DNA of 41,404 nt, from assembly GCA_001552775.1 (NCBI GenBank), contig KQ959276.1, forward strand, positions 1 to 41,404, read 5' to 3'. Numbering within the stretch: position 1 is the first letter of the stretch; every line of letters begins with the position of its first letter. The notes below the pieces were generated by a model, which made no database searches, was not told where the DNA came from, and saw nothing but the letters and a program-made list of their open reading frames with translations. Position numbers and translations under genes: made by a program. The stretch is from Bacteroidales bacterium KA00251 (GTDB lineage: Bacteria > Bacteroidota > Bacteroidia > Bacteroidales > Porphyromonadaceae). This document shows, piece after piece, positions 8,518-14,918 of the stretch.

Positions 8518-9624
8518 TTAATCTTCGTCGGTAGCGATCGGAGGGAGTACTTCATTGTCGGAATTATTGCTCGCATAGTAGGTTTTTCTAAGGGGATTGC
8601 GAGTGGCCAAGTCATGTTCTCTTCGGTTCTTAAGGACATCAATAGCGGTATAGGTTGCTTCCCTAAGTGACTCTTCAGATGCAATACCTTTTCCAACAAT
8701 ATCGTATCCTACACCATGGTCTGGTGAAGTGCGTACAATGGGGAGGCCTGCTGTAAAGTTTACACCACTATCCATGTATAGAGCTTTGAATGGAGCTAAT
8801 CCTTGGTCGTGGTACATTGCCACTACCCCATCAAAGCGCATTAGCATAGATGATCCCCAAAAACCATCTGAGGGGTATGGGCCAAAGCATTTTATCGCTA
8901 AATTACTACGACACTCCTCTACTGCAGGCAAAATAATTCTTTTCTCTTCATCACCTATAAGCCCTATGTCTCCGGCATGGGGGTTGAGAGCCAACACGGC
9001 AATTCGAGGATTGTCTATTGCAAAGTCACGTATGAGACTTGAGTGAAGCTCTTTTACCTTAGCAACGATCCTCTCTTTAGTAAGGGTCTTTGAGACCTCT
9101 GACAGGGGGATATGCTCTGTAACAAGAGCTACTTTCAGTCGGTCTGCCATAAGGATCATCAATGGGCTTTGTCCTTTTTCAAGGTGACATTTAGCCCCTA
9201 GATATGCAGTATGCCCCTTATAGGGGAAACGATCGTGTGGCATAATGGACTTATTGATAGGAGCTGTAACCAGAGCATCCACTTCTCCAGCAAGAAGATC
9301 TTTCATTGCTACTTCAAGAGCTTCATAGGAAGCAATTCCCGCCTCGGGAGTAGCCTTTCCCATTTCTACAATCAAGTCATCAGACACACAGTTAATCAGG
9401 TTAGGCTCACTTTCAGATGCCTCTCTTGGATTTTCTATCCTATTCCAAGGCATCTCGTCCATTTCTAATACCTTTCTGTAATAGGCAGAGACCTTTGCAG
9501 AGCCATAGACAATTGGTGTAAATAATTTTGTGATGTCTTTTGTGGAAAGTAGCTTGAGTAGAATCTCATAGCTAATACCATTTATATCGCCATGGGTAAA
9601 GGCTATTTTTGCTTTTTCATTCAT
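8518..9624 (-). CDS. pdxA: 4-hydroxythreonine-4-phosphate dehydrogenase
   Basis: Oxidises 4-phosphohydroxy-L-threonine to an unstable product that PdxJ uses to make pyridoxine 5'-phosphate (DXP-dependent vitamin B6 route). Visible family features are FTHGDINGISYEILLK at the start, DALVTAPINKSIM, PYKGHTAYLGA (about 130) with a metal-ligand histidine, LNPHAGDIG, and MYHDQGLAPFKAL (about 270-285) with the second metal His and Asp. At 368 residues it is slightly longer than the roughly 330-residue norm because of an acidic C-terminal tail. It is 47 bases after the DUF4837 gene; the gap holds an imperfect direct repeat (ATTACTAAAGG / ATTGCTAAAGG). Confidence 0.96.
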   Translation of the reverse strand: MNEKAKIAFTHGDINGISYEILLKLLSTKDITKLFTPIVYGSAKVSAYYRKVLEMDEMPWNRIENPREASESEPNLINCVSDDLIVEMGKATPEAGIASYEALEVAMKDLLAGEVDALVTAPINKSIMPHDRFPYKGHTAYLGAKCHLEKGQSPLMILMADRLKVALVTEHIPLSEVSKTLTKERIVAKVKELHSSLIRDFAIDNPRIAVLALNPHAGDIGLIGDEEKRIILPAVEECRSNLAIKCFGPYPSDGFWGSSMLMRFDGVVAMYHDQGLAPFKALYMDSGVNFTAGLPIVRTSPDHGVGYDIVGKGIASEESLREATYTAIDVLKNRREHDLATRNPLRKTYYASNNSDNEVLPPIATDED

Positions 9625-9671: not shown

Positions 9672-10802
9672 TTAGCGTTTTGATGTTGCAAAGGAAGGAT
9701 CGCTGACAGTAAGATCTTCAGCTGGACTCCAGCGAATCCTTTTTATTGGTTCAGGATCAAACATTTGCTCATTTTGTGGTCGGAAAGAAAAGAGTGCCGA
9801 ATGGAGTTTGCGCACCAAGTCTCGTTTATCTTCATTGGGGTAATAAACAAATCCCTCCACATAGTAAAGAGCTGCTTCATTGGTTGAGAAGAAGGCCTGT
9901 GCAATGAACGGACCTGCCATAATATCGGGAGGAGTCATTTCCCAAAGTCCACGAAGTTCTACAATACGCTTGCCAGAAGGCAACTCTGCGAGGCGGTACT
10001 CTATAGCATAATCCGAAGTTGTCATATGGGATGAGGGGTCCGATCCTGGGATCTCTTTTCCAAGTACGGAATCTCGTAAAGCAATAAGTTGCCGAGCGGA
10101 AGGGAGAGAAGAAGATGTATCGTAGGGTACTTTGAAAATTGCAAAGTCATATCTTTTCTTCATGGCATTATTGGAAAGCCACAAGAAGTTTTCTCCTTTT
10201 TTATAAGAGAGAACGTCTTTGGGAACATTTATTCGGCAGCCAAAGATCTCTTCACAATAGTTCATAGCAGTAGGGCTATAATCTTCCACGAGGTCAGACG
10301 CCATACGATACAGCTCATTCAGTAAAAACAACTCACATATCTCTCTCCCCCTCTCCGTAATATACTTATGGTAGCTTTGCATATCGGGAGTTTGTATTGT
10401 TACCACTATTTGTCCTTTGGCATAAGGGTCGAAGGTATACTTCACAGAGGTCGTAGTGTAAATATCCTTATTATAGTCTACAATAAGAATATTTCGAGTA
10501 TTGCGAAGGAATTGACCGAAATCGTCTGAGGATACGGTTTGTACTCGCAGCCAAGACTCAGTTTGTGGCAGTGATGGCACTTCCATACGGAGCATACTTT
10601 TTGTTTGTTCGCCTATTTCTCCCTTGAGCCAGCTTGAAGGCATCACTAAAAGGACTTCACCAGGACTTCCAGCAGCCGTTATACCAGGAAGACCACTGCC
10701 TCCAGACTTGCATGAGGATAAAAGGATAAACAGTCCACCCATCATCAATACGATCCTACCCCATCGAGAGGTTAGGGTAGATACAAATCTAGGTACATTC
10801 AT
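9672..10802 (-). CDS. DUF4837 family lipoprotein
   Basis: A 376-residue exported protein with a basic N-terminus, a hydrophobic core and a lipobox LLSSC with Cys31, then a Gly/Ser linker. From GEVLLVMPSSWLKGEIGEQTKS onward it matches the arrangement I know from DUF4837 proteins of Bacteroidota, which have no established biochemical role. No transmembrane segment follows the signal, so it is probably anchored in the outer or inner membrane by lipid. It starts 2 bases after the aminotransferase-like gene and precedes pdxA, so the three are likely co-transcribed. The function is unknown. Confidence 0.8.
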   Translation of the reverse strand: MNVPRFVSTLTSRWGRIVLMMGGLFILLSSCKSGGSGLPGITAAGSPGEVLLVMPSSWLKGEIGEQTKSMLRMEVPSLPQTESWLRVQTVSSDDFGQFLRNTRNILIVDYNKDIYTTTSVKYTFDPYAKGQIVVTIQTPDMQSYHKYITERGREICELFLLNELYRMASDLVEDYSPTAMNYCEEIFGCRINVPKDVLSYKKGENFLWLSNNAMKKRYDFAIFKVPYDTSSSLPSARQLIALRDSVLGKEIPGSDPSSHMTTSDYAIEYRLAELPSGKRIVELRGLWEMTPPDIMAGPFIAQAFFSTNEAALYYVEGFVYYPNEDKRDLVRKLHSALFSFRPQNEQMFDPEPIKRIRWSPAEDLTVSDPSFATSKR

Positions 10803-10804
10803 TT

Positions 10805-11848
10805 TTACTTTTCTTCAATATAAGATTGCCAATTTCGTAAAGCTTCAACAAGCTGTTTGTTTTCTTCTTCACTTCTTGCCGTGATACTGATACAATCTTT
10901 TTCCACACCGACAAAGAGATCAGCACGACCTACTAATATGCCATATTTTTCATGCAGATAGCTACACAACGACTCTATACAGCCTTTTTTGACACGTAAG
11001 AGAAAAAAAGTAGTATCGCTAGGAAGCACTTCGAAAAAATCCAGCTCGCGAAGGGCGGTCATAAGCTCTTGTGCAGAGCGAAGCCATTTTCGTACAGGGA
11101 GTGTAAACTGAGCGGGATGAATAAGAATATACTTAGCCGCTTCTAAAGCTTCAGAAGTAACTACAGAAGGAGTATACACTCTCCATAGGGCTTGTGCTAG
11201 TACTTTTGTAGCTGTAATATAACCGATCCGCAATCCAGGGATACCATAGGGCTGACTAAAGCTCCAAATAGTCATTACATTTGGATAAATCTTGATATGG
11301 CTTGGCTTAAGCTTATTGGTAGTAGTGAAAGAGGCATAACTTTGATTTACTACAAAAGTCACTTCAGGATATTTTTTGAAGAGACGAACCATATCAGCAT
11401 GAGATAGAATATGCCCATCTGGAGGGTTGGGAGTAGTAAGGAAACAGATATCAACTCCTTCTAGGTTCCAATCATCAACACGTTGATCATAGTCTAAATA
11501 GGAAACTGGACAATCGTATAACTCACAAGCATGTTGCAAGGCTTTTAAGGAAGGTTTTGGGAAAAGTACACGACTTTTAGGAAATGCACGAAGGATAAGA
11601 TGAAACGCTGCAGTAGGACCATTGGTTACCACCACTTCTTCTTCTGTCAACTCTTGTCTGCTAGCAATCATTTTCCGCAAAGTAGCTGCATTAGGCTCGG
11701 GGTAACTTTTTAGCAATTGTGTCAAACGCTCCTTAAGGTGTGAGGAAAGAAGGTCTATATTCGCGCCATACCATATAATTGAGCTAAAATCAACAAGTTG
11801 CGACTCCTCCTTAATGGTAGATCTCTGCAAGGGTGTTTGTGGACTCAT
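10805..11848 (-). CDS. Aminotransferase class I/II-fold protein lacking key PLP residues
   Basis: A 347-residue fold-type I aminotransferase-like protein, closest by motif to the HisC/CobD group. Conserved framework is clear: VVTNGPTAAFHLI (about 74-86), TTPNPPDG (138-145, keeping the PLP-contacting Asn141), SFSQPYGIPGLRIGY (196-210) and a C-terminal ARSEEEN. Two residues that define catalysis are changed. The Schiff-base lysine expected in the SxxK position of the PGLRIGY block is Gln199 (codon CAG, one base from AAG), and the aspartate of the usual D-x-x-Y segment that contacts the pyridine nitrogen is Asn168 (NQSY). The frame is otherwise intact. It may be a pseudoenzyme, or have another role. 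It heads the run with the DUF4837 gene and pdxA. Confidence 0.82.
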   Translation of the reverse strand: MSPQTPLQRSTIKEESQLVDFSSIIWYGANIDLLSSHLKERLTQLLKSYPEPNAATLRKMIASRQELTEEEVVVTNGPTAAFHLILRAFPKSRVLFPKPSLKALQHACELYDCPVSYLDYDQRVDDWNLEGVDICFLTTPNPPDGHILSHADMVRLFKKYPEVTFVVNQSYASFTTTNKLKPSHIKIYPNVMTIWSFSQPYGIPGLRIGYITATKVLAQALWRVYTPSVVTSEALEAAKYILIHPAQFTLPVRKWLRSAQELMTALRELDFFEVLPSDTTFFLLRVKKGCIESLCSYLHEKYGILVGRADLFVGVEKDCISITARSEEENKQLVEALRNWQSYIEEK

Positions 11849-11912: not shown

Positions 11913-14900
11913 TCATAGCACACTGTAAAAAGCCTCCAACAAACGAGGACGGATACGATTTGTTTGCAAAAGCGTATTGCTACGTGAGGGATAGGTGCGA
12001 TTGGAGAGAAAGACAAAGACAATATCTTTCACAGGATCCACCCAAAAACACGTGCCAGTAAATCCTGTGTGTCCAAATGTTTGAGGAGAGGCCTCGAAAG
12101 GAATATTGGGATTTCCAGGGTACCCTTTGACAAACCCCAAGTTTCTTTTTCCTCCATTTCCTGTAGTATGGAGGAAGTTGATTGTGACTTTCTCATCAAG
12201 AACAGCAGTCTTTCCCCACCAACCTTTATCAAGAAGGAGCAATCCTACCTTTGCAAGATCAAACGCATTGGCAAAAACCGATGCATTGCCTGCTACACCT
12301 CCTAAGCATGCCGCATTTTCGTCATCTACCAGTCCCCACACTTTGCCGCGAAGAAAGCTATTCTCTTGAGAAGGAGCTATCTGACTAACAGAAAAGCGAC
12401 GTAGAGGTGTGTATAGGAAATGATGAAGAGAGAGAGGCTGTATTAGGATCTCTTCAACAAACTGATCCAGAGGTTTGTGTGCCACTCGCTCTATAATAAG
12501 CCCTAAAAGGATATAGCCAACATCGCTATAAACTGTCTTTGAAGGATGCGTCGGCACCTGCTTTTTGATACAATCTAAGACTTCTGTTGAAAAGCTATCC
12601 GCAATATAGTAAAGTGAAGAGAATTGTTTTGTATAATCCTTTTTATACTTTGGGGAGAGGTACTTTTCCGATAGTCGAAAACCATCTGGCACCCACACAG
12701 AGCGATCTATCTGCTTTAATCCTTCTCCAGCTTGATAGTAAAACAAATGCCCGTCTGGTAAAGAGGTACTATCTACTAGTTTTTCATAAAAATTGATGGT
12801 TGCGGGCAAACCACTTTCATGCAACAACAATTCTTGAATAGTAATCGCTGCAACACTACTGCCTCGTAGCTCAGGGATATATTGTGCAATGGAGTCGTTT
12901 AAACAAAGTTTTTTCTTTTCAACAAGCTTCATTATTGCAGGTACCGTTGCTACAGACTTAGTAATTGATGCAATGTCGTAAAGCGTAGTATTATTCACGT
13001 CTGGAGCATCGGTTCCTCTATAAAGTTGACCAAACGATCGGTTGTACACCAAATTTCCTTTATAAATTACGGCTATCTGACATCCTGGATAGGCTCCAAT
13101 GCGAAGACCCTCCTCTGCGATCGAATCAACTTTTGCAAACCGCTGATCAAATCCAATCTCAGGTGAGCATATAGCTTCTAAATAAGGAGCCTTGGAGGGG
13201 CGGCTTGCTGGACGGGTTATTAAGAAGCTGTCTTCTAAGCCCAATAGTTGTGCCACCACAGCTCGGCCTGCCTCTTCACAGTCTTCATTAGCAAGAAGTA
13301 CAGTTTGGGCTTTAGAAAGGGAATGCTTCCATTCAGAAAAGGGAAAAGGAGTGTTGAAAAGCGTAAAGTAAAGAGTGTGATCCTGCGCAAGTCCAGAGAC
13401 AAGACGCTGGGCTTTGCTCCCTTTTTTATCATAAACATTTACGAGGAGATACTCACAAGAGTCAAACTTTTTTTTGAGTTGTGAAAGAGAAGGGAGCTTT
13501 CTATTCGTTTCAATCTTATAAGTAACAGCGGGGTTAAATTCAAGTTCCTGAAGGCTTTCACTAAATGCTTGTTCGGCACTAGAATTTTCGCCATTAACAT
13601 GAAGGATTCCTACCCTATGCTGCTTTATTTTCTCCAAAGTATTCCCATTTTGGATAGTTTTTATCTCCGTAATAGAGGCTCTCCATAGCTTATCAGCATT
13701 TTTGCAAAGAGGCTCTCTATGTAGCTGTTTATAGAAAGTTTTCTTATCTAGTATTTCTTTGTAGGGTAGTTTCAAGTTTCCATCAAAAAGGATCCACTTT
13801 GCAGTAAGCACCTTGCGACACTTATCCTTAATTTGTTGGGCAGAGAGTACACCTTTACTTACAGCATCAAGTATATCATTATACGTCTGCTGGGGATCTA
13901 TTGGACCTAACAAAACATCGTTTCCTGCTAGTAAAGACTCTACACCAATTGAACGCCCAGCTGCATTCTTAGCCCCTGCCATTGCCAACCCATCGGTAAA
14001 GATTAGTCCTTTGAAGCCTAGTTCCTCTTGAAGTAATTGTGTGGTTATCTTTTTACTCTGCGAGGCAGGTACTCCACGCTTTTCCAATGCTGGGACGACT
14101 AGATGAGCTACCATAATGCCACTATGCCCATTTTTTATGAACTCCTTGAAGGGGAATAACTCTACTCTATCTAGTGTGGCACGACTACCATATATTGTGG
14201 GTAAGGTCTTATGCGAATCTTTGTTGGTATTGCCATGTCCAGGGAAGTGCTTGGCCACAGCCATTACACCCTTGCTTTCCAATCCTCGAGCATAAGCTTC
14301 ACCTTGTATAGCTACTAGGTGAGGGTCACTACCAAAACTCCTCGTGCCTATAACAGGATTGTGTGGGTTGTTGTTAACATCTAGGACTGGGGCAAAAGAG
14401 ACCTGCACACCAAGCAGCTTGCACTGCTCAGCCATATCTCTTCCATATTGCTCCACGAGAGAAGTAGAAGCCGTGCCTAGGCCCCAATTCCGAGGATAGC
14501 GGATAGCATCACGAAGACGCATATAGAAGCCCCACTCATTGTCAGCTGAAATTAAATAGCCTATTTCTGATGAGGACTGAAGCCTATGTGTCATGCTATA
14601 CTGATCATAAGCCTTTCCTTTCTGAAAAAGAATTCCCCCTGCATGGATACTTTGTAGCATCTGCTCAACCTCTTTTATTTTCTGAGGATCTTGGCTGGGG
14701 TATACTACAGGCATGATAAGTTGTCCAACCTGCTCTTCAAGCGACATTTGAGAAAGCTTTTTCTCTACTGTATTATGGCATTCTTCGCTATCTCCCTTCG
14801 CCCATAATGAAGGCTTTATATGCTGTGCTGAAAGAAGAATAGAGCCCAGAGATACGACACAAAGTACCCGTATCAAAAGCCCCATACTTTTCTTTAAATT

Positions 14901-14918
14901 ATATTGATTTCTCATCAC
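11913..14918 (-). CDS. GH3 beta-N-acetylhexosaminidase / serine beta-lactamase-fold fusion, exported
   Basis: A 1001-residue exported protein. Residues 1-31 are a signal peptide (basic start, then LLIRVLCVVSLGSILLSA). The first enzyme domain (about 50-390) is glycoside hydrolase family 3 of the NagZ type, with KHFPGHGNTNKDSH (223-236), whose His-Asp dyad is typical of N-acetylglucosaminidases, and the nucleophile Asp319 in FTDG. A linker region (about 430-570) resembles the GH3 C-terminal sandwich. The second enzyme domain (about 600-1001) is a penicillin-binding/beta-lactamase fold with SITK (Ser661, Lys664), YSD (807-809, in place of YxN) and HTG (960-962). Together these suggest peptidoglycan processing in the periplasm: sugar cleavage plus peptide or ester hydrolysis. 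The fusion is known in Bacteroidota; the substrate of the second domain is not certain. Confidence 0.92.
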   Translation of the reverse strand: MMRNQYNLKKSMGLLIRVLCVVSLGSILLSAQHIKPSLWAKGDSEECHNTVEKKLSQMSLEEQVGQLIMPVVYPSQDPQKIKEVEQMLQSIHAGGILFQKGKAYDQYSMTHRLQSSSEIGYLISADNEWGFYMRLRDAIRYPRNWGLGTASTSLVEQYGRDMAEQCKLLGVQVSFAPVLDVNNNPHNPVIGTRSFGSDPHLVAIQGEAYARGLESKGVMAVAKHFPGHGNTNKDSHKTLPTIYGSRATLDRVELFPFKEFIKNGHSGIMVAHLVVPALEKRGVPASQSKKITTQLLQEELGFKGLIFTDGLAMAGAKNAAGRSIGVESLLAGNDVLLGPIDPQQTYNDILDAVSKGVLSAQQIKDKCRKVLTAKWILFDGNLKLPYKEILDKKTFYKQLHREPLCKNADKLWRASITEIKTIQNGNTLEKIKQHRVGILHVNGENSSAEQAFSESLQELEFNPAVTYKIETNRKLPSLSQLKKKFDSCEYLLVNVYDKKGSKAQRLVSGLAQDHTLYFTLFNTPFPFSEWKHSLSKAQTVLLANEDCEEAGRAVVAQLLGLEDSFLITRPASRPSKAPYLEAICSPEIGFDQRFAKVDSIAEEGLRIGAYPGCQIAVIYKGNLVYNRSFGQLYRGTDAPDVNNTTLYDIASITKSVATVPAIMKLVEKKKLCLNDSIAQYIPELRGSSVAAITIQELLLHESGLPATINFYEKLVDSTSLPDGHLFYYQAGEGLKQIDRSVWVPDGFRLSEKYLSPKYKKDYTKQFSSLYYIADSFSTEVLDCIKKQVPTHPSKTVYSDVGYILLGLIIERVAHKPLDQFVEEILIQPLSLHHFLYTPLRRFSVSQIAPSQENSFLRGKVWGLVDDENAACLGGVAGNASVFANAFDLAKVGLLLLDKGWWGKTAVLDEKVTINFLHTTGNGGKRNLGFVKGYPGNPNIPFEASPQTFGHTGFTGTCFWVDPVKDIVFVFLSNRTYPSRSNTLLQTNRIRPRLLEAFYSVL

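Follow-up and report, generated by a model that had tools for sequence, protein, structure and literature searches.

A probable CobD-derived pseudoenzyme in Porphyromonadaceae, conserved after loss of its PLP-binding lysine

INTRODUCTION

The window analyzed here, the whole stretch of 41,404 nucleotides of Bacteroidales bacterium KA00251 (contig KQ959276.1), carries an uninterrupted gene for an aminotransferase-fold protein in which glutamine stands where the PLP-binding lysine should be (Table 1). What could such a protein be kept for? A sequence-only reading of the locus had proposed selection for something other than transamination and, as speculation with the gene pdxA close by, a PLP-related role. 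We considered the question by comparing the gene with its relatives in Porphyromonadaceae and Tannerellaceae.

Table 1. Coordinates of the gene, its altered positions and its neighbours in the window
Feature	Position	Strand	Basis or remark
pseudo-CobD (Lys-less, CobD-derived), 347 aa	10805..11848	(-)	ORF, profile search, alignment, tree
Gln199, codon CAG, replaces PLP-binding lysine	11252..11254	(-)	sequence and alignment column
Asn168, codon AAT, replaces pyridine-nitrogen aspartate	11345..11347	(-)	sequence and alignment
Ser321, codon AGT, replaces conserved arginine	10886..10888	(-)	sequence and alignment
HPAQFTLPVRKWLR, residues 244-257 of pseudo-CobD	11078..11119	(-)	alignment A1, 24 rows
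GH3 (NagZ-like) + beta-lactamase-fold domain gene, upstream	11913..14918	(-)	signal-peptide-like start by eye
DUF4837 protein gene	9672..10802	(-)	pseudo-CobD neighbour in window only
pdxA	8518..9624	(-)	pseudo-CobD neighbour in window only

RESULTS

Catalytic residues missing from the window protein

The main observations of the sequence-only reading were borne out: the frame runs through 347 codons with zero internal stops, Asn141 is retained, the codon of Asn168 is read at 11347-11345, and Gln199 falls on the lysine column in the alignments both to 3fkd and to the set of 141 rows. A replacement lysine was looked for in the segment at this position, SFSQPYGIPGLRIGY, which is lysine-free. Scoring of features revealed further losses: Ser321 takes the place of an arginine that we take to bind carboxylate in this family, Ile24 that of an Asn invariant in CobD, and the N-terminal GHGD-type motif of CobD is gone. 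With Gln in place of Lys the internal aldimine cannot form; as Asp168, Arg321 and the N-terminal motif are missing along with the lysine, decarboxylation of threonine phosphate by the window protein is very unlikely.

The closest curated families were CobD (TIGR01140, 167.7 bits) and histidinol-phosphate aminotransferase HisC (TIGR01141, 142.6 bits), both scores being below the respective cut-offs of 290.55 and 276.55 bits. The first cut-off discriminates poorly: in seven other genomes the likely CobDs reach 251-275 bits and also miss it, and among the CobDs in this search only that of G025 passes. For HisC, the low score comes together with the missing lysine. What the window protein has in common with CobD is descent, as seen in the tree, and the predicted fold; loss of catalytic residues with frame and predicted fold intact is the pattern of a fold-type I pseudoenzyme. 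Salmonella enterica CobD (1lc5, 1lc7, 1lc8, 1lkc), which we take to be an active lysine enzyme of B12 synthesis, differs from the window protein in having the Lys, the Asp, the Arg and the N-terminal His motif.

Two CobD lineages

A tree was built for 118 proteins with column 199 removed. It leaves out 23 of the 141 aligned rows (four identical ones, 17 named copies whose genomes were already represented, and the fragments L187 and L188); the distant L050 was omitted from all sets, the frame-broken L008 from alignment A1, and the matches left unaligned include several second copies. Proteins related to the window protein formed a lineage, GH3-linked after its usual neighbour, with SH-aLRT 99, sister (SH-aLRT 99) to another CobD lineage in which 39 of 44 rows adjoin cbiB. 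Four Porphyromonas genomes (G001, G004, G012 and G015) have the Lys-bearing member of this other lineage apart from cbiB; in the remaining row, L216, the contig ends too soon. Thus, by tree and distribution, the window protein belongs to a lineage of threonine-phosphate decarboxylase: the aminotransferase fold named in the sequence-only reading was correct, and the family is now narrowed to a CobD-derived one.

Within the GH3-linked lineage, orthologues from Porphyromonadaceae and Tannerellaceae formed two groups. G047, from another family, appeared beside Tannerellaceae in the 118-protein tree and beside Porphyromonadaceae in a smaller tree; it keeps the lysine and misses only Tyr171. The window row sits on a long branch (0.93-0.95) and has no close relative.

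The lineage in Tannerellaceae

We searched 59 Tannerellaceae genomes, drawn from a larger group, with a presence threshold of E 1e-30. Gene cbiB was present in 35 of them, 29 with the GH3-linked type, two of these copies being fragments, and six with cbiB-linked CobD; at this threshold none of the 35 had both types and none had neither. Stretches around cbiB were read in 31 of the 35 genomes: a CobD-like ORF was seen in all six linked stretches and, within about 1.5 kb of cbiB, in none of the 25 unlinked ones. Ten of the 24 genomes without cbiB also had the GH3-linked type. The lysine was kept in 38 of 39 GH3-linked copies. Given this distribution and these residues, the GH3-linked lineage very probably supplies a working CobD in Tannerellaceae.

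The one exception, G376, has Ser at the lysine position; no cbiB was detected in this genome (87% complete), and its copy L262 (= L150) has no GH3 neighbour in the stretch read. It is possibly a further independent loss of the lysine.

We asked whether the RKW motif of segment 244-257 characterises the entire lineage, and it does not: of the 39 Tannerellaceae genomes picked up with a whole-protein profile, RKW was present in 31, and W255 in all 39. A Tannerellaceae subgroup (L264-L270 and L197) has a diverged HPAQF/RKW segment with Trp kept, along with the lysine and the GH3 neighbour. An earlier set of 50 Tannerellaceae loci had been collected via the RKW motif and is biased toward it, and columns that looked family-specific in the alignment were for this reason given no weight.

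Repeated loss of the lysine in Porphyromonadaceae

Orthologues were present in 24 of the 38 Porphyromonadaceae genomes searched. Residue 199 was His in seven copies, Gln in six, Arg in four, Asn in one, Tyr in one and Lys in five; thus, 19 of 24 copies were without the lysine. In the alignment, Lys occupied this column in 44/44 rows of the other CobD lineage, 50/51 rows of Tannerellaceae and 5/23 rows of Porphyromonadaceae. Since the column is rich in Lys elsewhere and poor in it here, and since more active-site residues are gone from the same protein, the comparison indicates that neither chance nor a sequencing error accounts for Q199. Counted on the tree, where support is modest at some inner forks, the Lys/non-Lys state requires at least five changes, or seven losses if Lys is never regained, and the residue states at 199 require nine changes. 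Mapping of K/Q at this position on the tree, which the sequence-only reading had called for, therefore shows the lysine loss to be repeated and lineage-wide, not one odd mutation.

Erosion reaches beyond the lysine. Eleven catalytic or substrate features were scored, Lys counted; all 24 Porphyromonadaceae copies lack at least two of them, and each of the five copies with Lys (L015, L016, L017, L019, L022) lacks three or four of the others. All eleven were present in 44 of the 49 rows from Tannerellaceae and in 37 of the 44 from the other CobD lineage. In the remaining rows the N-terminal motif alone is missing, perhaps through the choice of start codon; the exception is a single Tannerellaceae row, which has Ser for Lys. 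The phosphate cup persists in Porphyromonadaceae (23 rows, L008 and L014 omitted): G77 and S196 in 23/23, R207 in 21/23 and N141 in 22/23. D168 is kept in 20/23 and Tyr171 in 14/23; R321 is gone in 4/23. Alignment A1 has 22 invariant columns; H244, P245, A246, P251, R253, W255 and R257 are invariant across its 24 rows, and K254 is present in at least 90%.

The B12 pathway in carriers

Another CobD coexists with the orthologue in 17 of the 24 Porphyromonadaceae carriers; in the other seven the searches turned up no further CobD and no cbiB. Two of these seven, G018 and G036, have CobS and are fragmented assemblies; no weight is placed on them. In the other five, CbiB and CobS were both not found: G000, the window genome (95% complete), G011 (88%, copy frame-broken), G024 (98%), G028 (100%) and G035 (90%). 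The nucleotide-loop branch of B12 synthesis thus seems to be absent from the window genome and, given these five carriers, the job retained by the Lys-less protein is probably not B12 synthesis.

No copy was found in 14 of the 38 family genomes (four of them <90% complete), so the gene is dispensable for the group; 11 of these 14 genomes have a CobD.

DISCUSSION

A probable CobD-derived pseudoenzyme

We consider it likely that the window protein is a CobD-derived pseudoenzyme, selected for a non-catalytic role with fold and phosphate cup kept. The GH3-linked gene would be a second CobD lineage whose Tannerellaceae copy, usually the sole CobD found, presumably makes (R)-1-aminopropan-2-ol phosphate for assembly of the B12 nucleotide loop. 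In Porphyromonadaceae either another CobD would cover this step or no pathway was found; bit by bit, the superfluous copy could then have given up Schiff-base chemistry and the binding of substrate, with the fold and the cup (G77, S196, R207, N141) staying in place. The retained cup suggests that a phosphate-bearing ligand may still be bound. Entry 3eia is, by its title, a crystal structure of LL-diaminopimelate aminotransferase in a K-to-Q form with L-Glu bound; together with the kept cup, this favours a non-catalytic ligand-binding or partner protein. Most likely it would be a cytosolic dimer that holds PLP/PMP, or some other phosphorylated ligand, without turning it over, and that acts as sensor, scaffold or partner protein. 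Counting against the pseudoenzyme reading are the five copies that keep Lys, the dispensability of the gene for the group, the long, isolated branch of the window row, the single unsaturated control pair behind the dN/dS yardstick, the absence of the GH3 neighbour in the 11 g2 loci and the P. gingivalis clade, in which, of the 11 features, only Lys and Asn24 are gone.

Pseudoenzymes as such are a known kind of thing. Among the open-access papers searched we found none dealing, by title or abstract, with lysine loss in CobD, and none on a family of CobD-derived pseudoenzymes whose sister lineage is intact.

A possible change of chemistry

One could argue that the protein is an active enzyme that works through PMP or PLP and forms no internal aldimine, in the manner described in PMC8987622 for the ColD/E1 nucleotide-sugar 3-dehydratases, enzymes of the same fold in which a catalytic His in place of Lys works with PMP. 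His is indeed found in seven of the 24 Porphyromonadaceae copies, including that of P. gingivalis, where most of the pocket is kept, and a changed activity is possible in that clade, judging from its residues. In the ColD/E1 dehydratases, however, which are active with PMP, the His is conserved, whereas the replacement residue varies among the orthologues (Q, H, R, N, Y, K) and is Gln in the window; for the orthologues to share one chemistry without lysine, the replacement would have to be conserved, and such a chemistry is therefore disfavoured. The loss of D168 in 3/23 rows and that of R321 speak against it as well. For the window protein we regard changed chemistry as unlikely.

The P. gingivalis orthologue (L005, 1462-2487) touches on existing labels. 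Over 342 aligned residues the G025 protein differs at a single one from 3FKD, the P. gingivalis structure labelled 'L-threonine-O-3-phosphate decarboxylase'. 3FKD has His at the lysine position where the window protein has Gln; its G025 twin keeps D168, R321, Y49 and GHGD, unlike the window protein, from which D168, R321 and GHGD are gone. A distinct CobD that keeps Lys adjoins cbiB in the P. gingivalis genome (L032). Going downstream from the orthologue in G025, the second ORF encodes a sigma-54 regulator and the third a histidine kinase; PMC5581868 presents PGN_0012/PGN_0013 as a two-component pair, and PMC8050853 presents PGN_0012 as a response regulator. From this match of gene order we infer that the orthologue is PGN_0010 of ATCC 33277. 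The decarboxylase label of 3FKD, and the name 'CobC' under which PGN_0010 enters pathway inference for P. gingivalis, are probably wrong.

Neighbouring genes

The sequence-only reading had placed the gene in a tight run with the DUF4837 gene and pdxA and had suggested a PLP carrier, sensor or assembly partner. The run, with GH3 at its head, is there in the window, and the retained cup and N141 would suit such a role. As a conserved context it fails: pdxA/DUF4837 neighbours were seen in 0 of 24 other loci, some flanks being cut by contig ends. This removes conserved context as an argument for a link to PLP synthesis, while the notion of a selected protein other than an aminotransferase stands; we give a pdxA-coupled role little credence.

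The neighbour that does recur is a GH3 gene, with or without the beta-lactamase domain. It is upstream-adjacent in all 13 carriers of genus g1 and in G047, and near the orthologue in 40 of the 50 motif-found Tannerellaceae loci and in 34 of the 39 found by the whole-protein profile; it was not near the gene in any of the 11 g2 loci. As a GH3 relative is present in 37 of 38 family genomes, with or without the orthologue, the adjacency may be inherited gene order.

Several features of the flanks were seen besides. A GH20 hexosaminidase adjoins the gene in six of the 11 g2 loci (L069, L071, L072, L074, L075, L076), and also in L157/L290, so that two unrelated hexosaminidase families, GH3 and GH20, flank one gene. 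The GH3 neighbour measures only about 437 aa in P. uenonis and species close to it (L060-L064); in L060 Pfam detects no beta-lactamase domain in it, and downstream lie genes similar to RseC and Rnf. A downstream gene common to P. gingivalis and Parabacteroides was considered and rejected, a 256-aa phosphatase and a 245-aa acyltransferase being unrelated.

Decay or a dead subunit, two unlikely readings

A redundant CobD copy drifting under little selection, a relic on its way out, would account for the scattered losses in the active site, the long branch of the window row, the genomes with no copy found and the one frame-broken copy, that of P. gingivicanis (L059). Decay in sister strains was among the findings that would count against the sequence-only reading, and the data go the other way. 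Frames are intact in 23 of the 24 Porphyromonadaceae copies; the GH3 gene adjacent to the broken copy is also broken in several places, and assembly error is the likely cause. Thirteen pairs of pseudo-CobD genes were run, of which four were saturated (no NG86 dS) and two more had dS >1.5; NG86 dN/dS was 0.054-0.098 in the nine pairs giving values (eight Lys-less, one Lys-bearing; seven with dS <1.5), and YN00 dN/dS was 0.029-0.100 in eight pairs. Against this overall range of 0.03-0.10, the other CobD lineage gave 0.10-0.16, a control with only one unsaturated pair (nine pairs run, four giving values, three of these with dS >1.5). Purifying selection, as measured on pairs of relatives of the window gene, thus acts in these relatives despite the loss of residues. 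PMC2689231 lists PGN0010 'CobC' among the proteins detected in P. gingivalis, lowered in a mixed community. With this expression, the invariant columns, the frame counts and the dN/dS values against it, neutral decay is disfavoured, and we hold a relic to be very improbable.

In fold-type I enzymes, which are dimers, the two subunits share active sites. The protein might thus be a dead subunit paired with an active paralogue, for which the second CobD of 17 carriers could serve and for which LCB1, likewise a fold-type I protein without the PLP lysine (PMC3794620), working with active LCB2 in serine palmitoyltransferase, offers a model, but this is the least probable of the explanations, as no other CobD was found in seven of the 24 carriers, several of which have no paralogous partner found, and as a heterodimer with another CobD is disfavoured in particular for G000 and G024, where no second TIGR01140 relative was found at 1e-15.

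Implications

Returning to the CobD-derived pseudoenzyme, one could speculate, quite tentatively and with doubt, that the ancestor was a B12 decarboxylase with a second job at a cell-envelope (hexosaminidase) locus; it might have been released from catalysis once another CobD was present, and been converted several times in parallel to a non-catalytic sensor or partner for a phosphate ligand, outliving the nucleotide-loop pathway in some Porphyromonas.

The current enzyme label of the Lys-less Porphyromonas protein is probably wrong. Beyond annotation, the lineage offers a natural experiment: the orthologue has its catalytic set intact where it is the sole CobD found, in Tannerellaceae, and is stripped of catalytic residues yet conserved beside another CobD, or where no B12 nucleotide-loop pathway was found, in Porphyromonadaceae. 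A strongly selected PLP-fold protein without the lysine makes other uses of this fold directly testable.
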